38,877 bases of DNA, from positions 1-38,877 of the IMG/VR virus record IMGVR_UViG_3300020119_000267, one strand, 5' to 3'. A program made the position numbers and the translations under genes. Positions 1-38,877 of this stretch are shown here, piece by piece; within the stretch, counting starts at the first letter, position 1; each line of letters begins with the position of its first letter. Under the pieces are notes generated by a model, which made no database searches, was not told where the DNA came from, and saw nothing but the letters and a program-made list of their open reading frames with translations. The DNA comes from a virus.

Positions 1-37
1 AGAGAAAAAACATGGCAAAAAAAAATAAATCTAAAGA
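1..37. repeat. Terminal direct repeat, left copy
   Basis: The first 37 bases recur at 38842-38877. The only difference is a run of nine A after the ATGGC in this copy against eight in the right copy. Such an end overlap is what an assembler leaves when it closes a circular or circularly permuted genome. It is too short to be a typical phage terminal repeat, so I read it as an assembly overlap rather than a biological end. Confidence 0.85.
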
Positions 38-9519: not shown

Positions 9520-9746
9520 TTTTGGCTCTCTCTCCATAGGTTTATCATTTTGGGCAGATCAATATATATTTTTGAGGTCGGCGTTATCGTCAGTTTATGC
9601 CCGTGGCGATTGTTCCATCGCTTTACCGCGTCGAGTTGCTTGGATGGCTCTTTGATTACCTCATCGCCAAACGCCCATTTGCCAAAGCTATCGGCCTCTT
9701 CATGGGTGAGGTATTTCATTACCCAATCTCGCAAACCACCGTTCAT
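9516..9746 (-). CDS. Small protein of unknown function (76 aa)
   Basis: ATG 9746 overlaps the previous stop as ATGA, with GGGGGAAG just upstream. The protein is helical at first (YLTHEEADSFGKWAFGDE) and then basic (WNNRHGHKLTITPTSK). The acidic/basic split and the overlap pattern are the only clues; no family recognised. Confidence 0.65.
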   Translation of the reverse strand: MNGGLRDWVMKYLTHEEADSFGKWAFGDEVIKEPSKQLDAVKRWNNRHGHKLTITPTSKIYIDLPKMINLWRESQK

Positions 9747-9991
9747 GCTTCCCCCTGTATGCGACGGTGCAGTGTCTTTAAATAAGCAAGCGGGAGGTTT
9801 GTATAATCGCCCGTGATTATCTGCCGGAACTCCCGCTCATTTAAGACAAGCAGCTCAGCGCATTGTTTATCGGTCATTTTGCGCTCAAGCATGAATTCCT
9901 TGATCTTGATAATAAGCGCGGTCTTTTGCGCAAATATCTCTGCCTGGTCAATGTTTAATCTGATCGGCGAGGCCGTTATTGGTGTTGTCAT
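9743..9991 (-). CDS. XRE/HTH_37-type DNA-binding protein
   Basis: 82 residues with a compact helix-turn-helix at about 28-72: IIKIKEFMLERKMTDKQCAELL, then the turn and LNEREFRQIITG, then a segment ending YLKTLHRRI. The spacing is that of the HTH_37/XRE family seen in antitoxin-type and phage regulators. No toxin partner is adjacent. A single unpaired HTH in an early operon suggests a regulator of host or phage genes. Confidence 0.65.
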   Translation of the reverse strand: MTTPITASPIRLNIDQAEIFAQKTALIIKIKEFMLERKMTDKQCAELLVLNEREFRQIITGDYTNLPLAYLKTLHRRIQGEA

Positions 9992-10905: not shown

Positions 10906-11183
10906 TTTCTCTCTAAAGCAGTTATACGCTTATGAAGTGTGTTAAGTTTAAATTCAAAGTGTTTAAGATAGTTTTGAAATTCACTTATCGAAATAACCTC
11001 ATCAGCTTTCGGTTCTATATAAATTTCCCAGTCATTACTTTCATCTAATTGTTGACAATCTAAACCAGTCTCATCTTGAAGGTGCCCTTTATGGATACTG
11101 TAATATCTAGCTGCTCCCCAACTAGGTTGAGAAATTTTCTTACCTTCGGCCAGCCATATCATGGCCTGTTTTAAGTTAGCCAT
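10902..11183 (-). CDS. Tad2-like (DUF2829) candidate anti-defence protein
   Basis: 93 residues from ATG 11183, which has AAAGGTG four bases upstream; the longer frame from 11249 has no such site. The N-terminal domain starts ANLKQAMIWLAEGKKISQPSW and ends in NDWEIYIE around residue 60. That is the layout of DUF2829/Tad2 (a helix with EGKK, then P-S-W, then D-W-E-I). Members of this family bind the signal molecule of the Thoeris immune system. A C-terminal coiled-coil segment follows (SISEFQNYLKHFEFK). The domain resemblance is by eye; binding of the signal molecule is inferred from the family. Confidence 0.6.
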   Translation of the reverse strand: MANLKQAMIWLAEGKKISQPSWGAARYYSIHKGHLQDETGLDCQQLDESNDWEIYIEPKADEVISISEFQNYLKHFEFKLNTLHKRITALERK

Positions 11184-11445
11184 TTGCACCTTTTTTTTCT
11201 TTGATCTCTTTGCAGTATGGGCAGTTTTGGCAGCTGCACTCATCGTCAAAAAGCGTTTTCCAATCTATCCCAAAATATGCAGCAAGTGCTTTTCCCCGCG
11301 CCAAACTAAGCCCTATCTTGCCGCAGATAATATGCGAGAAATTCTCCGGCGAGCAGCCAATTCCTTTTGCAACCTCATACCAGCGCACTCCCTTTTCAAT
11401 GCGGAGTTTGTTGAGCATTAAAAGTTGTTTACAGCTTATTTTCAT
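11176..11445 (-). CDS. XRE-family HTH regulator with Cys-rich tail
   Basis: 89 residues. The HTH spans about 8-60 (LNKLRIEKGVRWYEVAKGIG, then SPENFSHIICGKIGLSLARG), a Cro/C1-type arrangement, with a following helix ending FGIDWKTLF. The tail has CSCQNCPYC, four cysteines in nine residues, likely to bind metal or sense redox state. It overlaps both flanking genes. As the second gene of the leftward operon next to a divergent promoter carrying a palindrome (11794-11808), it is a candidate local regulator. Confidence 0.7.
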   Translation of the reverse strand: MKISCKQLLMLNKLRIEKGVRWYEVAKGIGCSPENFSHIICGKIGLSLARGKALAAYFGIDWKTLFDDECSCQNCPYCKEIKEKKGANG

Positions 11446-12645: not shown

Positions 12646-13033
12646 ATGGAAGTGCTGCAAGACAAATCCGCCAGAGCTTGGCAAAAAGGTTCTATGCGAA
12701 ATTGAAGGGGATATCTTTGTCGCGCAGCGCTATGAAGATTATTATATTCCCATACCTTTTGCCGATCACCCTTTTGCAAAACAGCTCTGCCACCCAAATT
12801 ATTGGTGCGAGATTGATTTTCCAAAACAATTGCATGGATATACAAAGGTTGCGCCATCTAGCGATGGTAATGAATCCCCCGCGGAGATTTATAATAGGTC
12901 AATAACTATGGACGAATACAAGAGAGTTGCGCCGGAAGATTATCAAAAGCTGGCCGATGCTTTAATTAGCTCCATTGGCTCTTGTTTGAACTACCCAGAA
13001 AACCGTGTGCCGATAAATTTAGAGACTAACTAA
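12632..13033 (+). CDS. DUF551-like early protein
   Basis: 133 residues after a GGAG site. It begins WKCCKTNPPELGKKVLCEIE and continues with GDIFVAQRYE, then an aromatic segment ending YWCEIDFPK. That is the usual DUF551 wording (W....PP..G..VL....G....A.Y), a small beta domain of unknown role. It is the second gene of this type here, the other being the membrane-anchored one at 11429-11764. The C-terminal 55 residues are helical. Its end overlaps the leftward RusA gene by eight bases. Confidence 0.65.
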   Translation: MSKNKWKCCKTNPPELGKKVLCEIEGDIFVAQRYEDYYIPIPFADHPFAKQLCHPNYWCEIDFPKQLHGYTKVAPSSDGNESPAEIYNRSITMDEYKRVAPEDYQKLADALISSIGSCLNYPENRVPINLETN

Positions 13034-13379
13034 CTTCAACGCGCACGCCGCGGATTGGCGATTTTTCCTGTCCATATGCCCATGTGATATTGCTATTGCC
13101 ATCGGCGCGCCCGGGAGCCAATCCAGGTATTAGCAGATCGGCAAATACGTCACGGATATGCTTAAATGCCACCATTAAATTATCATCGTCGAGCTTACGC
13201 GGGGCAAGCCGCGTAAGTTTAACGGTGCAGGGAAATTTGATTTGCGGCCGCTCTTTTTTCCAACGAAGTGTGAGCAAAGCTTTTTGGGCTTTTTGACGCT
13301 TGGCCTTTACTGACCAGTGTTGTGAGACATTGGCCTCGGAAATTGTTGGAATTGGCAGCGTCCAATTCAATTGGCTCAT
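13026..13379 (-). CDS. RusA-like Holliday junction resolvase
   Basis: 117 residues with the pattern of the RusA family. A basic first half (WSVKAKRQKAQKALLTL) and beta strands are followed by RKLDDDNLMVAFKHIRD, the Asp-rich site that binds metal in RusA, and then PGRADGNSNITWAYGQ. RusA proteins cut four-way DNA junctions in two metal-dependent steps, and phages use them to resolve branches before packaging. Overlaps the next gene upstream by ATGA, as in its neighbours. Assignment by motif resemblance. Confidence 0.7.
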   Translation of the reverse strand: MSQLNWTLPIPTISEANVSQHWSVKAKRQKAQKALLTLRWKKERPQIKFPCTVKLTRLAPRKLDDDNLMVAFKHIRDVFADLLIPGLAPGRADGNSNITWAYGQEKSPIRGVRVEVS

Positions 13380-13693
13380 TTTTTGCAGCAGTCTTGGGCA
13401 CGCTCGCTTAATAGCTCTTCGAGCGCTTCTTGCAATTTGCTTTTGCGATCTAATTTTTCTTGTAATTCCACGCCGTAGTTTGCCATCATAAGTATATCAA
13501 ATTCAAGTTGACGTTGCAGATCGGTAAGCTCATGCTGCAACCTTTCTGCTAAAAAATCTTTTGATTCGGGCGATATTTTTACAAATTCCATTTTTTCCTC
13601 GGTATTGTATATTTTCTTAAGTCTTTTGGCATAGTTAGCTATATAATTAGATGTGCTTCTACGATATGGATAATCTTTTTCTTCGTAGCTCAA
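13376..13693 (-). CDS. Coiled-coil protein of unknown function (105 aa)
   Basis: ATGA overlap with both neighbours. Two long amphipathic helices are visible (AERLQHELTDLQRQLEFDIL and LQEKLDRKSKLQEALEELL), with no DNA-binding or catalytic pattern. It lies between a resolvase and an SSB-like gene, so it may assist replication or recombination; that is context only. Confidence 0.7.
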   Translation of the reverse strand: MSYEEKDYPYRRSTSNYIANYAKRLKKIYNTEEKMEFVKISPESKDFLAERLQHELTDLQRQLEFDILMMANYGVELQEKLDRKSKLQEALEELLSERAQDCCKK

Positions 13694-14040
13694 AACGGCA
13701 CCCCTTCATCAGCCTTTGGCTCGTCAACGTGGTCTTTTTTGCTGCGCTCGCCGGACGGCTTGTAAGCAGCCTCGGGATTCTCTTTGAGGAATTTTTTAAC
13801 GCATCGGAGCGCTTCGCCAAAGAACTGGTCTTTTATCTCAAGTGTGCGGGCGCCGACAATGTTAAAGTATTTAGTTTGACCCATTGAGTTGGTATATTTT
13901 TCCGAGGGGGGAGTTACAAATTCGCGTCCTTTATCTTCCATGTACATCATTTTATATATAATGAGGCCGGAAGGGAGTAATATATTAAAGCTTCCCTTTA
14001 CTATTCCTTTATTGACGGGATTGTAATGTAATACTTGCAT
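13690..14040 (-). CDS. SSB-like / SpoVG-like DNA-binding protein
   Basis: 116 residues with a beta-rich start (QVLHYNPVNKGIVKGSFNIL, then SGLIIYKMMY), like the SpoVG/KOW-like fold found in phage single-strand binding proteins. It has a basic middle and ends DEPKADEGVPF. An acidic tail finishing in (D/E)xxPF is the hallmark of the SSB C-terminal tip that docks host replication proteins. First gene of the leftward unit with a good promoter at 14082-14110. A phage SSB is the best reading, but the fold assignment is by eye. Confidence 0.6.
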   Translation of the reverse strand: MQVLHYNPVNKGIVKGSFNILLPSGLIIYKMMYMEDKGREFVTPPSEKYTNSMGQTKYFNIVGARTLEIKDQFFGEALRCVKKFLKENPEAAYKPSGERSKKDHVDEPKADEGVPF

Positions 14041-14081: not shown

Positions 14082-14110
14082 ATTATACCTTTTTTTTCAA
14101 TTATCATCAA
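14082..14110 (-). promoter_or_regulatory. Leftward promoter for the SSB-like/RusA operon
   Basis: On the minus strand TTGATG (14105-14110), 17-base spacer, TATAAT (14082-14087). It lies upstream of ATG 14040, whose binding site is AAGG. Operator copy 1 begins only eight bases upstream of the -35. Confidence 0.7.
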
Positions 14111-14117
14111 GCTGTAT

Positions 14118-14145
14118 CTTACGTGGTATATTTATATCATGAACG
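14118..14145. promoter_or_regulatory. Operator copy 1 (degenerate)
   Basis: Same 28-base layout as copies 2 and 3: eight-base arms around a twelve-base AT centre GTATATTTATAT. The right arm CATGAACG matches copy 2 at 7 of 8, the left arm is poorer; an internal TTACGT/ACGTAA inverted repeat is perfect. It starts 53 bases before copy 2, about five helical turns, and sits between the leftward and rightward promoters. Confidence 0.5.
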
Positions 14146-14156
14146 TAACAAATCGC

Positions 14157-14185
14157 TTGGTTATAAATCACGTTTATGGTATATT
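14157..14185 (+). promoter_or_regulatory. Rightward promoter overlapping operator copy 2
   Basis: TTGGTT (14157-14162), 17-base spacer and TATATT (14180-14185) preceded by TG to give an extended -10. The -10 lies in the centre of operator copy 2. Sequence over 45 bases matches the promoter at 18877-18905 at 37 positions. Confidence 0.65.
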
Positions 14186-14198
14186 TATAGCATAAACG
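14171..14198. promoter_or_regulatory. Operator copy 2 (perfect inverted repeat)
   Basis: CGTTTATG, twelve bases, CATAAACG: a perfect eight-base inverted repeat. The centre carries the promoter -10 element, so a bound protein would block RNA polymerase. Confidence 0.7.
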
Positions 14199-14289
14199 AT
14201 ACTAAAAACTCTCTGGAGCCTCGCTAATAGGATAAATGAGCAGATCGAGTTGGTAGAGTTTAGACAAAAACAAAAAAAAGGGAACTTAA

Positions 14290-14562
14290 ATGAACGAATT
14301 TAAATACTTTCAAGTCAGATCAATGAGACACAATTTTGGTACATTGTGGGACAATCTTAACCAAGCATTTGCGGAACTTGAGAAGGCTGAGAAAAGAATT
14401 GGCTATGGCAAATTGTACGTTGCCAAGGTCAATTTTTTAGGCAGAACTGAAGATGAGCAGAAGAATCTACAGCCTCGCGAATTCACTCGCGACGATTTTG
14501 CTACGGAAACTGATTGGCGCATTGCACACACACATTTTGGCAATCAAAGGAAGGGAGCATAA
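14290..14562 (+). CDS. Small early protein of unknown function (90 aa)
   Basis: First gene of the operator-controlled rightward operon; GGGAACTTAA precedes the ATG. The product is rich in charged residues and mixed helical (FGTLWDNLNQAFAELEKAEK), with Tyr/Phe-rich beyond residue 40. No family recognised. The 91 bases between operator copy 2 and the ATG form the 5' leader. Confidence 0.7.
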   Translation: MNEFKYFQVRSMRHNFGTLWDNLNQAFAELEKAEKRIGYGKLYVAKVNFLGRTEDEQKNLQPREFTRDDFATETDWRIAHTHFGNQRKGA

Positions 14563-14564
14563 AC

Positions 14565-14798
14565 ATGGAACTCGATTTATTATTTGAACTTATCAAGTGT
14601 GAGAATCGCAAGAATTGGCCGTCGATTGCTGAAACTGCAATTCAGAATGATTTGCTCAAAATACTTTACACTGTTGGCTGCACTTTGGAAGTGAGCTGTC
14701 CGGAGGGTTATAAAATTTTTGCCGAAATTATAGCAGAGGAAGTCAAAGATTCAATGAAGGGTTTATTGGATGGGACGCAAAGGAAAAAGGTGGCTTAA
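14565..14798 (+). CDS. Small early protein of unknown function (77 aa)
   Basis: ATG 14565 is preferred because AAGGGAG lies seven bases upstream and the previous stop ends at 14562. A longer in-frame start at 14514 would overlap the previous gene by 49 bases. Mostly helical (LLFELIKCENRKNW), acidic then basic. No family recognised. Confidence 0.65.
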   Translation: MELDLLFELIKCENRKNWPSIAETAIQNDLLKILYTVGCTLEVSCPEGYKIFAEIIAEEVKDSMKGLLDGTQRKKVA

Positions 14799-14800
14799 AC

Positions 14801-15061
14801 ATGAATTCTTTTTTTGATAATGAAATTTATATTACTTCAAAAGCAGATTTACAACGTTGGGTTTCCGATCAATGGAAACCTTGCGATCCTGATAGTTACA
14901 GCGTTGATGCTAATTCAATGATTACGGGCATAACAGATTATTTGTGGCTTTCATTGCATTACAATGAAAATTGGAATACTCAAAAACCGTTGCCTAATGA
15001 TATAAATGTTTTTGAGATCGCAGATTATTTAGAAAAAAATATACAAAGGGTCAGTGAGTAA
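14801..15061 (+). CDS. Small early protein of unknown function (86 aa)
   Basis: ATG two bases after the previous stop. The protein has an aromatic middle (WVSDQWKPCDPDSY, DYLWLSLHYNENW) and an acidic helical end. No family recognised. Confidence 0.65.
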   Translation: MNSFFDNEIYITSKADLQRWVSDQWKPCDPDSYSVDANSMITGITDYLWLSLHYNENWNTQKPLPNDINVFEIADYLEKNIQRVSE

Positions 15062-15298
15062 ATGAACACAAAAGGGTTTTTAAAATTTTTAGAGGTTAAA
15101 AATCAATTAACACCGGCTGAAATGACAACATTGGCTACAGAATTAGGAGCTTGTTATTTGAGCTATGGCAAAATGAAAAGCGATTTAATGTCTTTTCTTG
15201 TCGAGGGTGATTTGGTTGGTTTTCGCAAGCAACTTGCGCATATGGAAGAGCAAGGGCGGGCAATTAAAGCGAATTTAGAAAACAATATCAGACACTAA
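15062..15298 (+). CDS. Small early protein of unknown function (78 aa)
   Basis: ATG follows the previous stop directly. Helical throughout (KFLEVKNQLTPAEMTTLATE). Last gene of the operon, followed at once by a bidirectional terminator. No family recognised. Confidence 0.65.
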   Translation: MNTKGFLKFLEVKNQLTPAEMTTLATELGACYLSYGKMKSDLMSFLVEGDLVGFRKQLAHMEEQGRAIKANLENNIRH

Positions 15299-15337
15299 TA
15301 AAAAACCCCTTCTGCAACCGTGGAGCTGTAGAAGGGG
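15299..15337. terminator. Bidirectional terminator
   Basis: An eleven-base-pair stem, CCCCTTCTGCA at 15306-15316 with its partner at 15327-15337 (one G-U pair), around a ten-base loop. On the minus strand the stem is followed by TTTTTTATT, ideal for the leftward unit; on the plus strand only a short T/C stretch follows. The 117 bases from 15338 to 15454 hold no other clear feature. Confidence 0.85.
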
Positions 15338-15454
15338 AGCTTTCTCTCTACCAAAATGATTTTTTTCTGTCTTCTTAACTTCACACCAAAATCTAGTCTT
15401 CACCAGATGTTAGTATTCCTTCAAAAAACAATGCCAATATATACATTGGCTGCA

Positions 15455-15709
15455 TTAATTGAAAGGCTCTTTTCGATTATTGAGCAGGTCAATTTTTTTT
15501 GCCTCGTTTGCAATTTGCATTGCGTATCCTACTTTTTCTTTTCCAAGTGTTGTTAGAATTGCGATAAATTTTTGATCGCTATCTTTTGCTGCATCGTATA
15601 GCTCGCGAAGATAGGGCGGTAAAAATATTGGCGAGATTTCGACGGGATCGTCATTGAGCCAGCGGCCGAATTCAATCTCCGTTGAATCTACTAAACGCGT
15701 CCACGTCAT
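15455..15709 (-). CDS. Small protein of unknown function (84 aa)
   Basis: ATG at 15709 after AAGGA, overlapping the end of the helicase gene by 38 bases. N-terminal part aromatic and charged (TWTRLVDSTEIEFGRWL), then a helical second half (KDSDQKFIAILTTLG). Last gene of the leftward replication unit. No family recognised. Confidence 0.65.
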   Translation of the reverse strand: MTWTRLVDSTEIEFGRWLNDDPVEISPIFLPPYLRELYDAAKDSDQKFIAILTTLGKEKVGYAMQIANEAKKIDLLNNRKEPFN

Positions 15710-17048
15710 TTTGTGTCCTTGTTGCTTTTAGAGTTTTTTCAATGTCTTGATCTTCAAATAATCTGCCGTATTCAAATCGCATCCGGATTGTGCCGAGGTT
15801 GCCAAAGTTTCTGTTCTTTTTGACGTGGACGTAGGTGAAATCGTTGTCTTTGCCGCGGTTTGGGCGATCGAGCATAATGATTGTGTCGGCGTCCTCTTCG
15901 ATGGAACCCGATTCGCGGATATCGCCGAGCTGAGGGGTGGGATCGTTACGTTGGCTCATGTTCCGGTTAAGTTGCGCCAATGCCACGATGGGGACTTTGG
16001 TTTTTTTTGCAAGCTGCTGAAGTCCCTTCGAGATCGAATCAATTTCAAGATGCTTATTGGAATATTTGCCGACAGATTTTACGAGCGTTAGGTAGTCGAC
16101 GAAAACTAGGTCGCAGCCGTGCTGCTGAATGAGCTGGTTGGTCTTTGTGTGGATGTAGTTCATATCGGCCGGAACGGAGCCATCGAGAACAAGATTGGAG
16201 CCGCGGCGCAGGGAGTCCACGTTGATAATCATTTCCATTTCTGTTTGCGTTATGTTCCCTTCGTTGAGGCGCTTGGGATCAATTTGCGTGTAGGCGCCGA
16301 TCAACTTATCATAGATATCGTGCGGCGTCATCTCAAGCGTGAGGAATAAGATACGCGATTGAGGCTTGACGCTTAGGATGTTAACAATGACGTTCATCAT
16401 GTAGGTTGTTTTACCGGCGGAGGTTGAGGCCGCGATGATATTATAAGAGCCTTCGGAGAATCCGCCGATGAGTCCGTCGAGTTTGTGGTATCCCGTCTCG
16501 ACGCCGATAAAGTTGGATTTTCCCGCCAAGTAATTGAGTCTTCGTTGCTGGACAATTTCGGCGTATGTTTTGCCATCGCGGAAATTTTGCGACAGCTCCG
16601 CAATTGAGTAGCATTGGGAACTTTGGGAGGTGCATAAGTTTTGCAGGTCAGAGATGAGCGAGGCGATCGTTGCCTCTGGCGATTCGTTCTCATCAGTTAG
16701 TTTCTTAAAGGCATCTTGGATTTTTGCCGCGCTTTCATGTTTGATCTTTTCTTTGCGGACGATGGCGAAGAAATGGTCGAAGTCTACTTCGCTGTAGCAG
16801 TCCTTGATGAAAGTTAGCACTTCACCGATTGAGGTGATAATATCTTGCGGCGTCGATGCCCGCAGCGCCTCGTGAACGCTACGCAGATTGATCTCCACTG
16901 AGCCTTGATATAGTTCAGTGATTGTGTTAAAGACAAACTTGCAAGCTTTTGAGCGGAAGCATTTAGCGTCGAGCTTCCTGAAGTTCGGCGCATAGAAGTT
17001 CAGCACAACCGAGGCCAATAGAAATTTTTCAGCCGTGAGCGGGTTCAT
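15672..17048 (-). CDS. DnaB-like replicative helicase
   Basis: 458 residues from ATG 17048, chosen because GGTG lies six bases before it and the upstream in-frame ATG at 17060 has no site. A helical N-terminal domain (about 1-110) precedes a RecA-like core. The core has the P-loop ASTSAGKTT near residue 210, FLTLEM, then Walker B DLVFVDYL, then IVALAQLNRN, and DIRESGSIEEDADTIIMLDR. These are the five motifs of DnaB-type hexameric helicases. It unwinds DNA at the phage fork and presumably recruits host primase. Overlaps the flanking small genes. Confidence 0.9.
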   Translation of the reverse strand: MNPLTAEKFLLASVVLNFYAPNFRKLDAKCFRSKACKFVFNTITELYQGSVEINLRSVHEALRASTPQDIITSIGEVLTFIKDCYSEVDFDHFFAIVRKEKIKHESAAKIQDAFKKLTDENESPEATIASLISDLQNLCTSQSSQCYSIAELSQNFRDGKTYAEIVQQRRLNYLAGKSNFIGVETGYHKLDGLIGGFSEGSYNIIAASTSAGKTTYMMNVIVNILSVKPQSRILFLTLEMTPHDIYDKLIGAYTQIDPKRLNEGNITQTEMEMIINVDSLRRGSNLVLDGSVPADMNYIHTKTNQLIQQHGCDLVFVDYLTLVKSVGKYSNKHLEIDSISKGLQQLAKKTKVPIVALAQLNRNMSQRNDPTPQLGDIRESGSIEEDADTIIMLDRPNRGKDNDFTYVHVKKNRNFGNLGTIRMRFEYGRLFEDQDIEKTLKATRTQNDVDAFSRFNGD

Positions 17049-17328
17049 CGAACACACCATTACGTTTTAAAAAAATAAGAGGGTTATCTAATAAATAATC
17101 AATATCTTTGCTGAAATAACGGATGGTTGTGCGCCCATTAGCCTTAACTGTTTTCAAGACTTTACATTCTTTGCAGTAATTTAAAATGGTTGTAATTGTG
17201 GTTGTGGAACACTTAAATTTCCGAGCTAATTCCCTGATGGAATCTGTTAATCCCTCCGTATAGGTTGTTTCCTCGATCATTTCTTTAAGAATTCTTTTTT
17301 GATTTTCAGTAAGCAGAATTTGCTTCAT
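17029..17328 (-). CDS. Winged-helix protein, paralogue of the initiator N-domain
   Basis: 99 residues: QILLTENQKRILKEMIEE, SIRELARKFKCSTTTI, ILNYCKECKVLK, then a wing and YFSKDIDYLLDNPL. Layout and many positions match the first 90 residues of the next gene upstream (QILLT..QK, LA.K.K.S..TI, FS..I...L..P), so the two are paralogues. A winged-helix DNA-binding protein without the initiator's long C-terminal half; it could be a modulator that competes for the same sites. Confidence 0.75.
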   Translation of the reverse strand: MKQILLTENQKRILKEMIEETTYTEGLTDSIRELARKFKCSTTTITTILNYCKECKVLKTVKANGRTTIRYFSKDIDYLLDNPLIFLKRNGVFDEPAHG

Positions 17329-17395
17329 AGGTCTGAATCTCCTTTTGAAACAAGCATCTTACCAATTGTCTCAATAAACGTCCATCTCTGTGTTT

Positions 17396-18310
17396 TCACC
17401 CTTCGGTTGAACGTTCTATAATTTTTATAAGCTCTTGATTCAGATCAAGGTGTGTTTTGGACTCGGACGCTGTAGCCACTAAAATCTTAATGCTGGCAAG
17501 TGTGCGGCGAAAACCATATGTGTGGATGGCTGTTAATGCGGTGCCGATGTTTAAAGATACGTGCTGGAGCGTCACAGTTGCGTTGTGGGCGCATATCGCC
17601 AGGTCTTTGGCTTTGGAGTGGTTTTGAGTTAAAGTTGGCTCACGATTGAATTGTGAGCGTTCTTTAAGCTTGGAACGAAATAGGCCTATAGGATTTTTAA
17701 TGTTGTGGCTTCTTTGAACTTCTGCGATAGCGTCGAGAATATATCGGCGGCAGTAGTTATGTGCTAAGTAGTGGCAAGCGCCCGGGTCAATGGCGGGGAA
17801 AGCGTCGAAGATGTCTTCCATAGCCAGTCTTGCAACATCGTTGTAAGGGATGTTTTCATTTTTAGAGCCAGCGTCCACATTGTTATCATTGTTTAATACT
17901 TCTTCTTTATACTTATATATATGCTCTCTTGGGGGCGGTTCCGCAAGTCCTTCATTATTAGATACTTGTTTGTTAGCCGATTGATTATCCGATTGATTAG
18001 CCGATTCGTTATCCTCTGTGTGTTCATGCCAAAAATAACCAAATTTGCGCAGCCAGAAAACAGGGGCTTTAAGGAACTCGAAAATTTCATCTGAAAAAGT
18101 CTTTATATATTTTTTGGAGCCATCGTAAAGAAATTGTACAAGGTTGAGGCGCTTAAGATATTCAAAAATTTTACATATAGTCTTCAGACTAGTTTTATAT
18201 TTAAGTGCCAATTTGCGGTAACTGAGATCAAGGCCGCCATATCCGTAGGCGTCTCTTGCCATTTGATCGAGAACTGATTTTTGAAGGTCTGTAAGAAGGA
18301 TTTGCGCCAT
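17396..18310 (-). CDS. Putative replication initiator (O-like)
   Basis: 304 residues from ATG 18310 with GGAG eight bases before it. The N-terminal winged helix is shared with the downstream small gene (see 17029). A Gln/Asn/Ser-rich linker (about 110-135) holds three twelve-base DNA repeats. The C-terminal part is helical with HYLAHNYCRRYILDAIAEVQ and no known enzymatic motif. A winged-helix protein that binds repeats inside its own gene and is followed by a DnaB-like helicase is the lambda O / P arrangement. Assignment as initiator rests on that layout. Confidence 0.6.
   Translation of the reverse strand: MAQILLTDLQKSVLDQMARDAYGYGGLDLSYRKLALKYKTSLKTICKIFEYLKRLNLVQFLYDGSKKYIKTFSDEIFEFLKAPVFWLRKFGYFWHEHTEDNESANQSDNQSANKQVSNNEGLAEPPPREHIYKYKEEVLNNDNNVDAGSKNENIPYNDVARLAMEDIFDAFPAIDPGACHYLAHNYCRRYILDAIAEVQRSHNIKNPIGLFRSKLKERSQFNREPTLTQNHSKAKDLAICAHNATVTLQHVSLNIGTALTAIHTYGFRRTLASIKILVATASESKTHLDLNQELIKIIERSTEG
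17972..18007. repeat. Three tandem 12-bp repeats (candidate origin iterons)
   Basis: Three direct copies, GTTAGCCGATTG, ATTATCCGATTG and ATTAGCCGATTC, with a fourth partial copy continuing beyond 18007. They lie inside the putative initiator gene, in frame, where they encode the Asn/Gln/Ser linker. AT-rich DNA (17905-17930, with a run of alternating TA) lies to the left. This resembles the iteron and AT-rich arrangement of lambdoid origins. Confidence 0.5.
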
Positions 18311-18345
18311 GTTGAAAGCTCCGTTAAGCATTAAATTAATGTTTA

Positions 18346-18476
18346 GGGATTGCTTTCTTTGGACTTTTTGCTTATTCTGTTGGCTCTTAAAACCGGATAG
18401 TTTATAAGAATCTCAGAATTGGTAAGCTCCTATTTAGCAATCCCAATAGAATCGGCGGGAAGGTTAAGTCCCGCCG
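18346..18476. ncRNA. Structured non-coding element
   Basis: The 196-base gap between the HTH repressor gene and the initiator gene holds nested complementary segments. GGGATTGCT (18346-18354) pairs with 18436-18444. GCTTATTCTG (18370-18379) pairs with 18414-18418 and 18423-18427 across a TTGG bulge. A 9-bp hairpin with one bulge lies at 18385-18409 (loop CGGATA). A separate 8-bp stem CGGCGGGA/TCCCGCCG follows at 18453-18476. A short T-rich stretch follows on the plus strand. A small RNA, a leader for the initiator mRNA or a DNA site are all possible; the strand is not established. Confidence 0.4.
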
Positions 18477-18527
18477 TTTCAATTTCACGGCAACTTTAGA
18501 TACTTTAAAGTTTGATTTCCATCAAAA

Positions 18528-18884
18528 TCAGTTCCAGACCAGCGTGTCTTTACCGAACTCCTTTAAATTCAACTCCTCTTGCACGCGTTTTTCTACCACC
18601 CGCTTAATCATTTTTGGCTTATAGACCGTTATCCAGTCCGTTTGGGGAGGTTCGTCAAGTATGGCGGCGAACTCGTAATAGGTAAAATAACCGTGGGTTT
18701 TCGTGACAATGTTGTGGATTGAGCTAAAATAAACGTCCCTGCCGCTTGTGATGCGGCACCACTTGGCCGGCGTGATTCCGGCGATGGTAAGGAATTCATT
18801 GACTTTGATGCGGTTTTCTTTACAGAAGCGCTTCATCTTCAGGCGGATGAGTGCGCGTAACTCTTCTTTTTTTTGGTTGCTCAT
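18528..18884 (-). CDS. HTH repressor-like protein
   Basis: 118 residues from ATG 18884; an upstream in-frame start would run through the operator. A helix-turn-helix is seen at about residues 20-60 (FCKENRIKVNEFLTIAGITP then AKWCRITSG), followed by a beta/helical part ending in a basic tail. Its 5' end adjoins operator copy 3, whose promoter -35 overlaps its start codon, so it would repress its own divergent neighbour and possibly itself. I take it as the candidate that reads the three operators. There is no peptidase domain, so it is not a LexA-type cleavable repressor. Confidence 0.6.
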   Translation of the reverse strand: MSNQKKEELRALIRLKMKRFCKENRIKVNEFLTIAGITPAKWCRITSGRDVYFSSIHNIVTKTHGYFTYYEFAAILDEPPQTDWITVYKPKMIKRVVEKRVQEELNLKEFGKDTLVWN

Positions 18885-18905
18885 AAATTCCGTTTGTGTT
18901 ATATT
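18877..18905 (+). promoter_or_regulatory. Rightward promoter for the recombination operon
   Basis: TTGCTC (18877-18882), 17-base spacer, TG and TATATT (18900-18905): extended -10. It shares 37 of 45 bases with the promoter at 14157-14185, including the operator. Confidence 0.65.
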
Positions 18906-18918
18906 TGTAGCACAAACG
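18891..18918. promoter_or_regulatory. Operator copy 3 (perfect inverted repeat)
   Basis: CGTTTGTG, twelve bases, CACAAACG: a perfect eight-base inverted repeat around the promoter -10, with the same layout as copy 2 and compensating changes in both arms (A to G matched by T to C). Symmetric change in both arms shows the dyad itself is conserved. Confidence 0.75.
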
Positions 18919-18955
18919 ATATAAAATGATCGAATATAAGTAAAGGAGAAAAAAA

Positions 18956-19711
18956 ATGACAGTAGCAACCATCAACGGGCTTAGCCCAGAAGAGTATCGG
19001 GTTATCAAAAACCTGATCGACCCATCGAACAAGTTCAACAATGAGCAGATTGGGCTGTTTTTGCATGTTTGCAAAGAACGTAAACTTGACCCAAGGCTTA
19101 AACAAATTTATGCGATACCGCGCAAAAACAAGGACACGGACAGAAACGAGCTAACGGTACAAGTTGGCATTGATGGCTTTAGGCTCATTGCTGAGAGAAC
19201 GGGAAGATATGCGCCAGGGCGCCCCACCGAGTTTGTCTTTGCAGAAGATGGAAGCGTCATATCTGCAACGGCATACGTTAAAAAGCAGACACTGGACAAT
19301 ACCTGGCACGAAGTGTCGGCCACGGTTTTTATGGTCGAGTATAGGCCAAAGTTCAATGACAGGTTTTGGGTGCAGATGCCGTGCAGCCAGCTGGAAAAGT
19401 GCGCCGAGTCCAAGGCTATCCGCAAGGCGTTCCCTGGCGAGACAAGCGGGCTATATTCACCGGAAGAGATGGCGCAAGGCGGCGATGTCATACAGGCCGA
19501 AGTTGCAGAGCCGGAGATTGTTATAGATACCTCACCGCAAGCCCAAGAGCTTCGCCTTGAGATTTCTGCAGAAACAAAAGATTTTACAGAGGCGCAACTA
19601 GCTAGGTTCAATGATGGTCTGAAAAAGAACAATATCAAGCTTGAAGAGGCCACGGTCGAGCAGCTAGAGCTAAGCTTGGCCGGCGCTCGCAAAATTAGGG
19701 GAGGCAAATAA
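18956..19711 (+). CDS. bet: Bet (RecT-like) single-strand annealing protein
   Basis: 251 residues after an AAAGGAG site. The early part has the Bet family signature: ERKLDPRLKQIYAIPR, then VGIDGFRLIAERTGRYA, then MPCSQLEKCAESKAIRKAFP. Bet/RecT anneal complementary single strands and act with a 5'-3' exonuclease, which is encoded next (19711). The C-terminal 60 residues are acidic and probably a flexible or partner-binding tail. Start and product length match family norms. Confidence 0.9.
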   Translation: MTVATINGLSPEEYRVIKNLIDPSNKFNNEQIGLFLHVCKERKLDPRLKQIYAIPRKNKDTDRNELTVQVGIDGFRLIAERTGRYAPGRPTEFVFAEDGSVISATAYVKKQTLDNTWHEVSATVFMVEYRPKFNDRFWVQMPCSQLEKCAESKAIRKAFPGETSGLYSPEEMAQGGDVIQAEVAEPEIVIDTSPQAQELRLEISAETKDFTEAQLARFNDGLKKNNIKLEEATVEQLELSLAGARKIRGGK

Positions 19712-20040
19712 TGAGCAGTCTTATCCAAGGGTCAAAAGAGTGGCTTGAGTTTCGGCGCATCCGTGTGGGTTCATCAGACTCAGCGGCCATTATGGGCGTC
19801 TCGCGCTATAAAACGGCGTATGAGCTGTATATGGAAAAGAAAAATCCCAACTTTGAAAACATTGCTAACGATGCAATGCGGGAAGGCACTCGAAAAGAGC
19901 CGATTGCGCGCAAATGGTATGGCGAGCTTATCGACGAGGTATTTTCACCGGTGGTCGCTGTGCATCCAATTTACCCGCTGATACACTCGTCAATTGACGG
20001 GGTAACATTTGATTGGGATGAGCTGATCGAGATAAAATGA
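19711..20040 (+). CDS. YqaJ-type exonuclease, N-terminal part (ends at in-frame UGA)
   Basis: 109 residues starting at TAATG overlapping the bet stop. It has QGSKEWLEFRRIRVGSSD, then SSIDGVTFD and LIEIK, which carry the metal-binding Asp and the Glu and Lys of the PD-(D/E)xK site, then a TGA. The frame continues unbroken for 181 codons to 20583. The family usually has Cys directly after EIK and then PG. Without readthrough this piece would lack half of its fold. It may be a nonsense mutation, a sequencing error, or readthrough/recoding; see findings. Confidence 0.75.
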   Translation: MSSLIQGSKEWLEFRRIRVGSSDSAAIMGVSRYKTAYELYMEKKNPNFENIANDAMREGTRKEPIARKWYGELIDEVFSPVVAVHPIYPLIHSSIDGVTFDWDELIEIK

Positions 20041-20086
20041 CCGGGAATAAAAGCTTTTGAGGACATCAAAAAAAATGGAATTCCCG
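20038..20086 (+). promoter_or_regulatory. UGA codon followed by nested hairpins
   Basis: TGA at 20038-20040 is followed by CGGGAAT at 20042-20048, which is complementary to ATTCCCG at 20080-20086. Inside, TTTTGA (20055-20060) pairs with TCAAAA (20066-20071) around GGACA. UGA followed by C is also a leaky stop context. Confidence 0.4.
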
Positions 20087-20583
20087 ACGATTATTTTTGC
20101 CAATGCCAGCACCACATGTTGGTCACTGATTTGGAAGAGGTGACGTTTATTGCCTACGTCAATGATAAAACTTTTCACATCATCAAAGTGAAGCGCGACG
20201 ATAAATATATTTTAGAGCTGCTCGACAAAATTCTTGCCTTTTTGGACTGCCTGCAAAATAATACGCCACCAGAGCAGACAAAACGCAAAACGAAAGTTGA
20301 CTATGAAGAGACAAACGACGCAGAAATACTGTCTAAAATTGCTATCATCCGAGCGGCTAAAAAGCGCATGGCTGTGGAAGAGGCGCTTATTGATGCGGCA
20401 AGGAGTGAACTTGAGCAGCTATCCGCGGGACGAAATTTGCGAGGAGATGGCTTCCAGCTTTTCCGCACAACCACAGCCGGAGCTGTTGACTACTCAAAAA
20501 TCCCTGAGCTGAAAAATGTTGACTTAGAAGTGTACCGCAAGCCATCGTACCAAAAATTTACCATTAAGGTTGATGATGTATAG
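20041..20583 (+). pseudogene. YqaJ-type exonuclease, C-terminal part
   Basis: In frame with the N-terminal part across the TGA. It continues PGIKAFEDI, then GIPDDYFCQCQHHMLVTDLE (the second half of the nuclease core with the conserved Gln), then a charged helical tail ending YRKPSYQKFTIKVDDV. The first in-frame ATG inside it is at 20116 (residue HHM), which would remove part of the core and has no clear ribosome binding site. So the piece is probably not made as an active protein on its own. Confidence 0.65.
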
Positions 20584-26297: not shown

Positions 26298-26326
26298 CGA
26301 ATAGTAATTAGTTTATTGTGTTTTCT

Positions 26327-26851
26327 ATGATTCAATTTCTACCCATAAAAAAACTAAAGGGATACCACAGAAATCCGCGCAAAATTACGGCCGAATCAAT
26401 GGCAAGACTTTGCGAAAATTTAGCAGCCGACCCCAAGCTTATGGAGCGCCGGCCGCTGCTTTGCTACATAGATGAAGAGGGCAGTTATATTGTATATGCC
26501 GGCAATCAGCGTTTGCGCGCAGCTGCAAAACTTGGCTGGAAAGAGATCGCTTGCTTTGTTGATGATACCTATGACTATGAGACTATCCGCAAACGAATTG
26601 TTTTAGACAATAAAGCAGCTGGCGAGTGGGACTATGATATTTTGAGCAGCGACTATGAAACAGAAGAGCTGTTCAATCTTGGCTTTACTGAAAACGAGCT
26701 TTTTGGAAAAGATGACGAAAAAAAAGAAGCCATCCCGCCAAAATTAAAGGCCACGATCATTTTTGAGGATGAAAAACAAATGGATGAGTTCTGCCCAAAA
26801 CTTGAAGAGTTTTGCGAAACACATGATTTAACACTTAAGCTTGGGAAGTGA
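26327..26851 (+). CDS. ParB-like nuclease-domain protein
   Basis: 174 residues from ATG 26327, preferred over an in-frame GTG at 26318. It has the ParB N-terminal signature: KLKGYHRNPRKIT, then LERRPLLC-type strand, then YIVYAGNQRLRAAAKLGWKE (GNxR), and DNKAAGEWDYD. ParB/sulfiredoxin-like domains bind CTP or cut DNA, and small ones next to terminase genes are common in phages. No ParA partner is present, so partition is unlikely; a role in packaging or modification is a guess. Confidence 0.8.
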   Translation: MIQFLPIKKLKGYHRNPRKITAESMARLCENLAADPKLMERRPLLCYIDEEGSYIVYAGNQRLRAAAKLGWKEIACFVDDTYDYETIRKRIVLDNKAAGEWDYDILSSDYETEELFNLGFTENELFGKDDEKKEAIPPKLKATIIFEDEKQMDEFCPKLEEFCETHDLTLKLGK

Positions 26852-38762: not shown

Positions 38763-38877
38763 AAAGTTGTTACAGCGATAAAGATGACTCCAAAAAAATG
38801 GAGATGAAGCCTAAGAAAAAAACCAAAAGAGAAAAAATGAAAGAGAAAAAACATGGCAAAAAAAATAAATCTAAAGA
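38759..38877 (+). CDS. Lys-rich small protein, partial at window end
   Basis: ATG 38759 overlaps the previous stop (ATGA). 39 residues are inside the window (CYSDKDDSKKMEMKPKK then KEKKHGKKNKSKD). Through the circular junction it would continue into the frame of the gene at 12 if the homopolymer has eight A's; with nine A's it ends at a TAA just past the run. Confidence 0.65.
   Translation, partial: MKSCYSDKDDSKKMEMKPKKKTKREKMKEKKHGKKNKSK
38842..38877. repeat. Terminal direct repeat, right copy
   Basis: Repeats 1-37 with eight A instead of nine in the homopolymer. Confidence 0.85.

Follow-up and report, generated by a model that had tools for sequence, protein, structure and literature searches.

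Paired palindromes over two early promoters of an uncultured phage as candidate operators of a Cro-like repressor

The stretch of DNA analysed here (the window), a virus record 38,877 bases long, contains two perfect inverted repeats that lie over the −10 boxes of two similar promoters. What purpose do these dyads serve, and which protein would bind them? The reading we favor, to which we give a probability of about 0.6, is that they are the operators of an autoregulated Cro-like early repressor, for which the likeliest candidate is the 118-aa HTH protein encoded beside one of them.

The sites lie in two divergent gene pairs (Table 1). At the 18884/18956 divergence the HTH gene and recT face each other directly, with 71 bp between them. 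Leftward, the HTH gene is followed by a hairpin, the DnaD-like gene, a small winged-helix-like ORF and the DnaB-like helicase gene; rightward, recT is followed by the YqaJ/RecE-like exonuclease frame. The second pair, at 14040/14290, consists of gene 13690-14040 and those beyond it on the left, and four small ORFs on the right; gene 13690-14040 had no family match. The preliminary description of this DNA had proposed that the two promoters start separate rightward operons, and the gene map bears this out, the gene at 18956-19711 encoding a RecT-family protein. A selenocysteine reading of the TGA in the exonuclease frame was rejected: recoding is unsupported because the downstream hairpin was no better than shuffles (z −1.16) and TGA is an ordinary stop codon in 24 of the 59 listed window genes. 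No known RNA families were matched.

Table 1. Coordinates of the sites, promoters and genes discussed in the text.
Feature	Coordinates	Strand	Basis or remark
Dyad copy 1, CGTTTATG-N12-CATAAACG	14171..14198	+	over extended −10 of the promoter of the 14290 operon
Dyad copy 2, CGTTTGTG-N12-CACAAACG	18891..18918	+	over extended −10 of the recT promoter, just before the HTH gene
Degenerate third copy, CTTACGTG-N12-CATGAACG	14118..14145	+	on TGGTATATT
Promoter 1, TTGGTT (14157-14162), 17 bp, TG-G-TATATT (−10 at 14180-14185)	14157..14185	+	sequence; family motif scan
Promoter 2, TTGCTC (18877-18882), 17 bp, TG-T-TATATT (−10 at 18900-18905)	18877..18905	+	sequence; family motif scan
Leftward promoter-like site beside the degenerate dyad, TTGATG-17-TATAAT	14082..14110	-	
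Weak leftward promoter-like site that could transcribe the HTH gene, CTGTCA-18-TATATT	18933..18962	-	9/12 matches; tentative
118-aa HTH protein, candidate Cro-like repressor	18528..18884	-	profile, family-guided model, conserved position
G+C-rich hairpin between HTH gene and replication gene, CGGCGGGA-N8-TCCCGCCG	18453..18476		
Replication initiator or helicase-loader-like protein	17396..18331	-	weak DnaD-like match
DnaB-like replicative helicase	15672..17060	-	
RecT-family single-strand annealing protein	18956..19711	+	
YqaJ/RecE-like exonuclease frame, broken by TGA at 20038-20040	19711..20583	+	
Operon of four small ORFs behind promoter 1, no function assigned	14290..15298	+	ORFs 1, 3 and 4 scanned
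Leftward genes beside the degenerate dyad (first gene 13690-14040)	13026..14040	-	

Both dyads have perfect 8-N12-8 arms and lie exactly where they had been placed, over the −10 boxes. The two copies share the same spacing and 24 of 28 bases, and the best same-spacing dyad pair in 300 shuffled genomes reached an identity of 0.76. A lone perfect 8-N12-8 dyad is unremarkable (0.83 expected per shuffled genome of the window's size); chance cannot account for the pairing, unlike a single dyad. The copies differ at dyad positions 6, 9, 17 and 23, of which 6 and 23 form a matched symmetric pair (A>G / T>C). The symmetry of the change had been taken to mean that the dyad is under selection; one compensatory pair lends this support and does not prove it. 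When the inner positions are counted too, 12 of 14 pairs are palindromic in copy 1 and 11 of 14 in copy 2. The half-sites (CAYAAACG) are 20 bp apart from centre to centre, about two helical turns, and lie on one face of the DNA with one on each side of the −10; classical Cro operators have a narrower half-site spacing. Dyad 2 lies 6 bp upstream of the ATG of the HTH gene (18884). The degenerate copy starts 53 bp before copy 1 and is adjacent to a leftward promoter-like site, on its −35 side; the right half-site of this copy is good and the left one poor. The preliminary description had the position of this copy and its leftward promoter right, and numbered the copies inconsistently: next to the HTH gene stands the 18891 dyad and not, as it stated, the third copy. 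By the scans run, the dyad sites are limited to these two promoter regions of the window.

Both perfect dyads are centred on an extended −10, TGnTATATT, with a TTG −35 located 17 bp upstream; the −35 of promoter 2 falls at the start of the HTH gene. A transcript from the weak leftward site at 18933..18962 would have dyad 2 in its leader. Among the 22 HTH-divergent intergenic regions of the family, TGNTATAWT occurs on the recombination strand in 11 and on the HTH strand in one, as compared to 1.7% of random 200-bp stretches. The common extended −10 of the family is of the TGTTATATTT type, with a TTG and an A/T-rich block upstream, and a 50-bp promoter profile trained on relatives only recovers both promoters of the window, with scores of 20.2 and 14.3. 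What these two promoters have in common in their core is thus a family-wide early promoter, and the palindromic arms are an element additional to it. The promoters had been described as near-identical, with 37 of 45 bases equal, a count that is right for the 45 bases starting 14 before the dyad. Operators placed over two early promoters remain our reading; much of the similarity is the family promoter motif. Because half of the family intergenic regions share the extended −10, part of the similarity between copies 1 and 2 belongs to the promoter and not to the operator.

The relatives were gathered by a search with the P22-type portal protein, which yielded 68 IMG/VR loci and four from genome assemblies, and one weak match among 50,697 deposited phage records; the nine relatives used in the portal alignment are 46–56% identical to the window portal. 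With an HTH profile built from five position-equivalent proteins, one of them from the window, genes of this HTH type came up in most of the larger records; 22 were aligned. Family profile A4, to which the window protein contributes, has its best PDB matches in the Cro proteins 8co2 (6e-10) and 8c7k (8e-10). Pfam matches in the 22 members (PF15943 in 8, PF01381 in 11) are to HTH_3, YdaS and HTH_26. The family also matches phage repressor families. A small Cro/YdaS-type HTH gene divergent from recombination genes is kept in about 20 relatives, most of which have RecT, Erf or exonuclease as the divergent neighbors. From the ORF lists, three relatives (G005, G011 and G020) have a replication-type ORF downstream on the HTH strand; Pfam gave no convincing match for those of G005 and G011. 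A G+C-rich hairpin follows the HTH gene in 11 of 12 genomes' intervals as compared to 60 of 300 random intervals, which are mostly coding, and several of the hairpins lack a T-run in the direction of the HTH gene; a conserved terminator at this position is only suggestive.

The dyad itself recurs sparingly. Searches of IMG/VR gave no match to the narrow operator pattern, and the generalised pattern CGYTYRTGNTATANNNNTNNCAYRARCG, with Y/R at the variable arm positions, has exactly one match in 2.9 million IMG/VR contigs. This match is in G020, a relative with a homologous portal protein. Its perfect dyad, CGCTCATG-N12-CATGAGCG, has arms that differ from the window's and overlaps the ATG of a 68-aa HTH gene whose product scores 4e-9 against the family profile when tested by itself. 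The neighbor of that gene is terminase instead of recT, and its product has no close kinship to the window protein. The 1.33 Mb of family loci contain 198 TGNTATAWT anchors, and a perfect 8-N12-8 dyad in this register was found only at the two window sites and in one relative; 0.004 such dyads were expected (entries L108 and L046 are the same site). A looser dyad (12/16 pairs) in the same register lies on TGTTATATT in the HTH-RecT intergenic region of locus L023 (G001). L028 and L029, found in IMG/VR through relatives of the L023 HTH protein, were set aside as unrelated phages in which a comparable dyad is absent. The preliminary description had named absence of the dyads from close relatives that keep both operons as an observation against its proposal. 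The dyad recurs in one relative, and most relatives that keep the operons lack its exact form, so the sites have changed; a regulator changing along with its site also predicts this absence.

These data bear on three other explanations. The similarity could be mainly that of two copies of the family promoter, with arms that are incidental or a promoter feature and no repressor. The frequency of the extended −10 with its upstream elements in the family speaks for this, as does the fact that most such TGNTATAWT regions carry no dyad, but it leaves unexplained the two perfect 8-bp arms with their matched change and the occurrence in a relative of another perfect dyad whose arms are different; we regard it as improbable. 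Far less probable still is that the dyads are replication, partition or DNA-structure sites (cruciform, origin or parS-like) and not transcriptional operators. The locus is beside replication genes, and an extrachromosomal state is conceivable for a phage without a tyrosine integrase; no partition operon was identified, however, and all three copies are in exact register on the TGnTATATT box, as one would expect of operators but not of partition or origin sites.

More weight, though still unlikely, goes to real operators with a different binder, either a host transcription factor or one of two other HTH proteins of the window, with a different role for the 118-aa protein. On the HTH family profile the ORFs at 9743-9991 (E = 2e-5) and 11176-11445 (E = 0.0017) both outscore the 118-aa protein, and 11176-11445 also matches Pfam HTH_26 at 1.5e-4, as well as phage repressor families. 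The 118-aa protein alone matches HTH_26 at E = 0.041 and a family profile built without its own sequence at E = 0.044 (among 249 ORFs). Close homologues of the window HTH protein, RecT and DnaB were not found in IMG/VR, and the HTH protein had no match in genome contigs, phages or plasmids; it is probably a divergent family member, its sequence match to the Cro family being weak. Neither competing gene adjoins a dyad, however, and both lie inside leftward gene runs, whereas the regulator-type gene of about 20 relatives occupies the position of the 118-aa gene, divergent from recombination genes. A single-sequence model of the 118-aa protein was poor (pLDDT 42), and AlphaFold2 with the 22-row family alignment predicts a helical HTH domain (pLDDT 86) with five helices in the first 75 residues. 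Foldseek against the PDB returned nothing below E = 0.33, the weak matches being mostly Xre-type HTH proteins. Because of its gene position and the family-guided model we prefer the 118-aa protein as the best candidate binder. The preliminary description had also put forward the adjacent HTH gene, and this choice is supported by the kept position, the predicted fold and, in one relative, the dyad adjoining an HTH gene.

In the early phase of infection, the RNA polymerase of the host would start from the two extended −10 promoters, those of the 14290 and recT operons, and the HTH-replication side would be served by a leftward promoter. Accumulating HTH protein would bind the half-sites on either side of the −10 and block polymerase, shutting down both early operons. 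The analysis shows the sequences and their geometry, a pairing beyond chance, the kept gene order and promoter core, and the recurrence in a relative; we infer the binding, the identity of the binder, the direction of its effect, for which we go by the positions, and the timing. The bound regulator would conflict directly with RNA polymerase. Since the half-sites lie on one face and flank the −10, repression with negative feedback is the most likely effect. A bound dyad at 18891 would sit in the HTH gene's own leader and so limit its synthesis, and the leftward 14040 operon may have a weaker modulating site in the degenerate copy at 14118, which lies next to the operon's −35.

In lambda, Cro acts at OR and OL, the PR operon has the order cro-tR1-cII-O-P and the PL operon carries bet-exo. 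As in lambda, the window has a (candidate) early repressor gene, a hairpin and replication genes in order, recombination genes on a divergent early operon, and two promoters that carry the same sites. Unlike lambda, it lacks cI and a triple operator, its sites are centred on the extended −10, and its operons run apart from a single intergenic region that contains no immunity gene. Another likeness is to YdaS of CP-933P, a cryptic prophage of E. coli O157:H7. YdaS has been shown to be a Cro analogue, and it binds palindromes that overlie its own promoter and the one opposite, a distant promoter, PL, sharing the sites (PMC8630535). There the CI analogue PaaR2 is divergent from ydaS and the palindromes are 18 bp, with consensus GTTTAGTAA (PMC8630535). 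Both systems have a small HTH gene, of the YdaS/Cro type in CP-933P and a candidate for that type in the window, just upstream of replication genes, palindromes overlapping divergent promoters, the HTH gene's own included, and a distant promoter with the same sites. The window differs in its 28-bp sites with half-sites 20 bp apart, and a CI-type repressor gene between the early operons, divergent from the HTH gene, was not found at the locus, where recT stands instead. Mycobacteriophage immunity repressors are reported to act via operators and stoperators (PMC9283540, PMC6550527), and one recognises an asymmetric site (PMC9283540). The likeness is a phage repressor, here a candidate, with sites at early promoters; the window sites differ in being symmetric and, in the scans run, confined to two promoter regions.

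The preliminary description had proposed a two-operon switch in a phage without an integrase, and so a non-integrating or lytic regulator. We found no evidence of two states and no CI-like partner at the locus, and a Cro-type shut-off fits the arrangement better than a two-state switch. The tyrosine integrase (PF00589) is indeed absent from the window, in a search that works on this phage family because it found the integrase in 2 of 18 records (the window and 17 relatives). The two, G001 and G027, make the step from its absence to a lytic lifestyle a weak one; lytic growth, loss and an extrachromosomal state may all be compatible with it. Only tentatively, and with some doubt, would we extend the scheme to a lineage mostly without integrase whose early circuit is Cro-only, with one HTH gene, no CI partner and a constant −10 promoter, the arms and the HTH protein varying so that each phage has its own specificity.

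The type of control, which is the most likely one here, is already known; what the analysis follows through a family of unstudied phages is, at the least, the arrangement of the genes. For this large group of uncultured phages, which have P22-like portals, the result offers a regulator-operator pair that can be put to the test. The apparent absence of a CI partner raises the question of what role a Cro-type regulator plays when it stands alone, and the constant promoter core with its changing palindromic arms makes the group useful for studying how the specificity of phage repressors changes.

An early promoter motif, consisting of TTG, an A/T-rich block and TGTTATATTT, is conserved across the phage family on the strand of the recombination genes. 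It was seen in 11 intergenic regions that separate a small HTH gene from divergent genes (in most relatives RecT, Erf or exonuclease), and examples are listed in the table together with two relatives found by portal protein in which a dyad occurs in the same register on an extended −10 box.

Features in the window and in loci (L) of related phages
Feature	Locus	Position	Strand	Remark
Dyad on extended −10 box	L023	709-740		Portal relative; adjoining small HTH gene
Dyad on extended −10 box	L046	240-267		Portal relative; adjoining small HTH gene
Early promoter motif	L096	18705	-	
Early promoter motif	L090	2323	+	
Early promoter motif	L043	2383	+	
Further HTH protein	window	9743-9991	-	In leftward gene run
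Further HTH protein	window	11176-11445	-	In leftward gene run
Putative ParB-like ORF	window	26318-26851	+	Adjoins terminase genes; judged by eye

Other repeats were also observed. Immediately 5' of the dyad in L046 (genome G020, about 195-240) are three AACAT-type direct repeats spaced about 10-11 bp apart. L096 has no dyad; instead, the roughly 140 bp that precede HTH gene 18839 contain three near-identical direct repeats of the acacgattgctaatttt type, possibly direct-repeat operators or iterons. L087 contains a perfect inverted repeat with 13-bp arms, GCTTTACATGGTA-N6-TACCATGTAAAGC (11217-11248).

The two ends of the window (1-37 and 38842-38877) carry the same sequence, AGAGAAAAAACATGGCAAAAAAAA..., apart from a single base within a run of A, and the record is therefore probably a complete, circularly closing genome. 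A single TGA (20038-20040, +) interrupts the YqaJ/RecE-like exonuclease frame at the very codon that in most relatives encodes the Cys of EIKCP, so that the window reads EIK*PG. Because a hairpin 3' of this TGA was not significant and TGA is an ordinary stop codon elsewhere in the window, the interruption is most likely due to a nonsense mutation or an error in sequencing.

Both further HTH proteins match the Cro-like profile, built from position-equivalent HTH proteins, better than the candidate repressor (18528-18884) does. A G+C-rich hairpin (18453-18476) separates the gene of this candidate repressor from the next large ORF on its strand, and with the equivalent intervals of relatives such a hairpin is present in 11 of 12 genomes checked, a placement like that of tR1 after cro in lambda.
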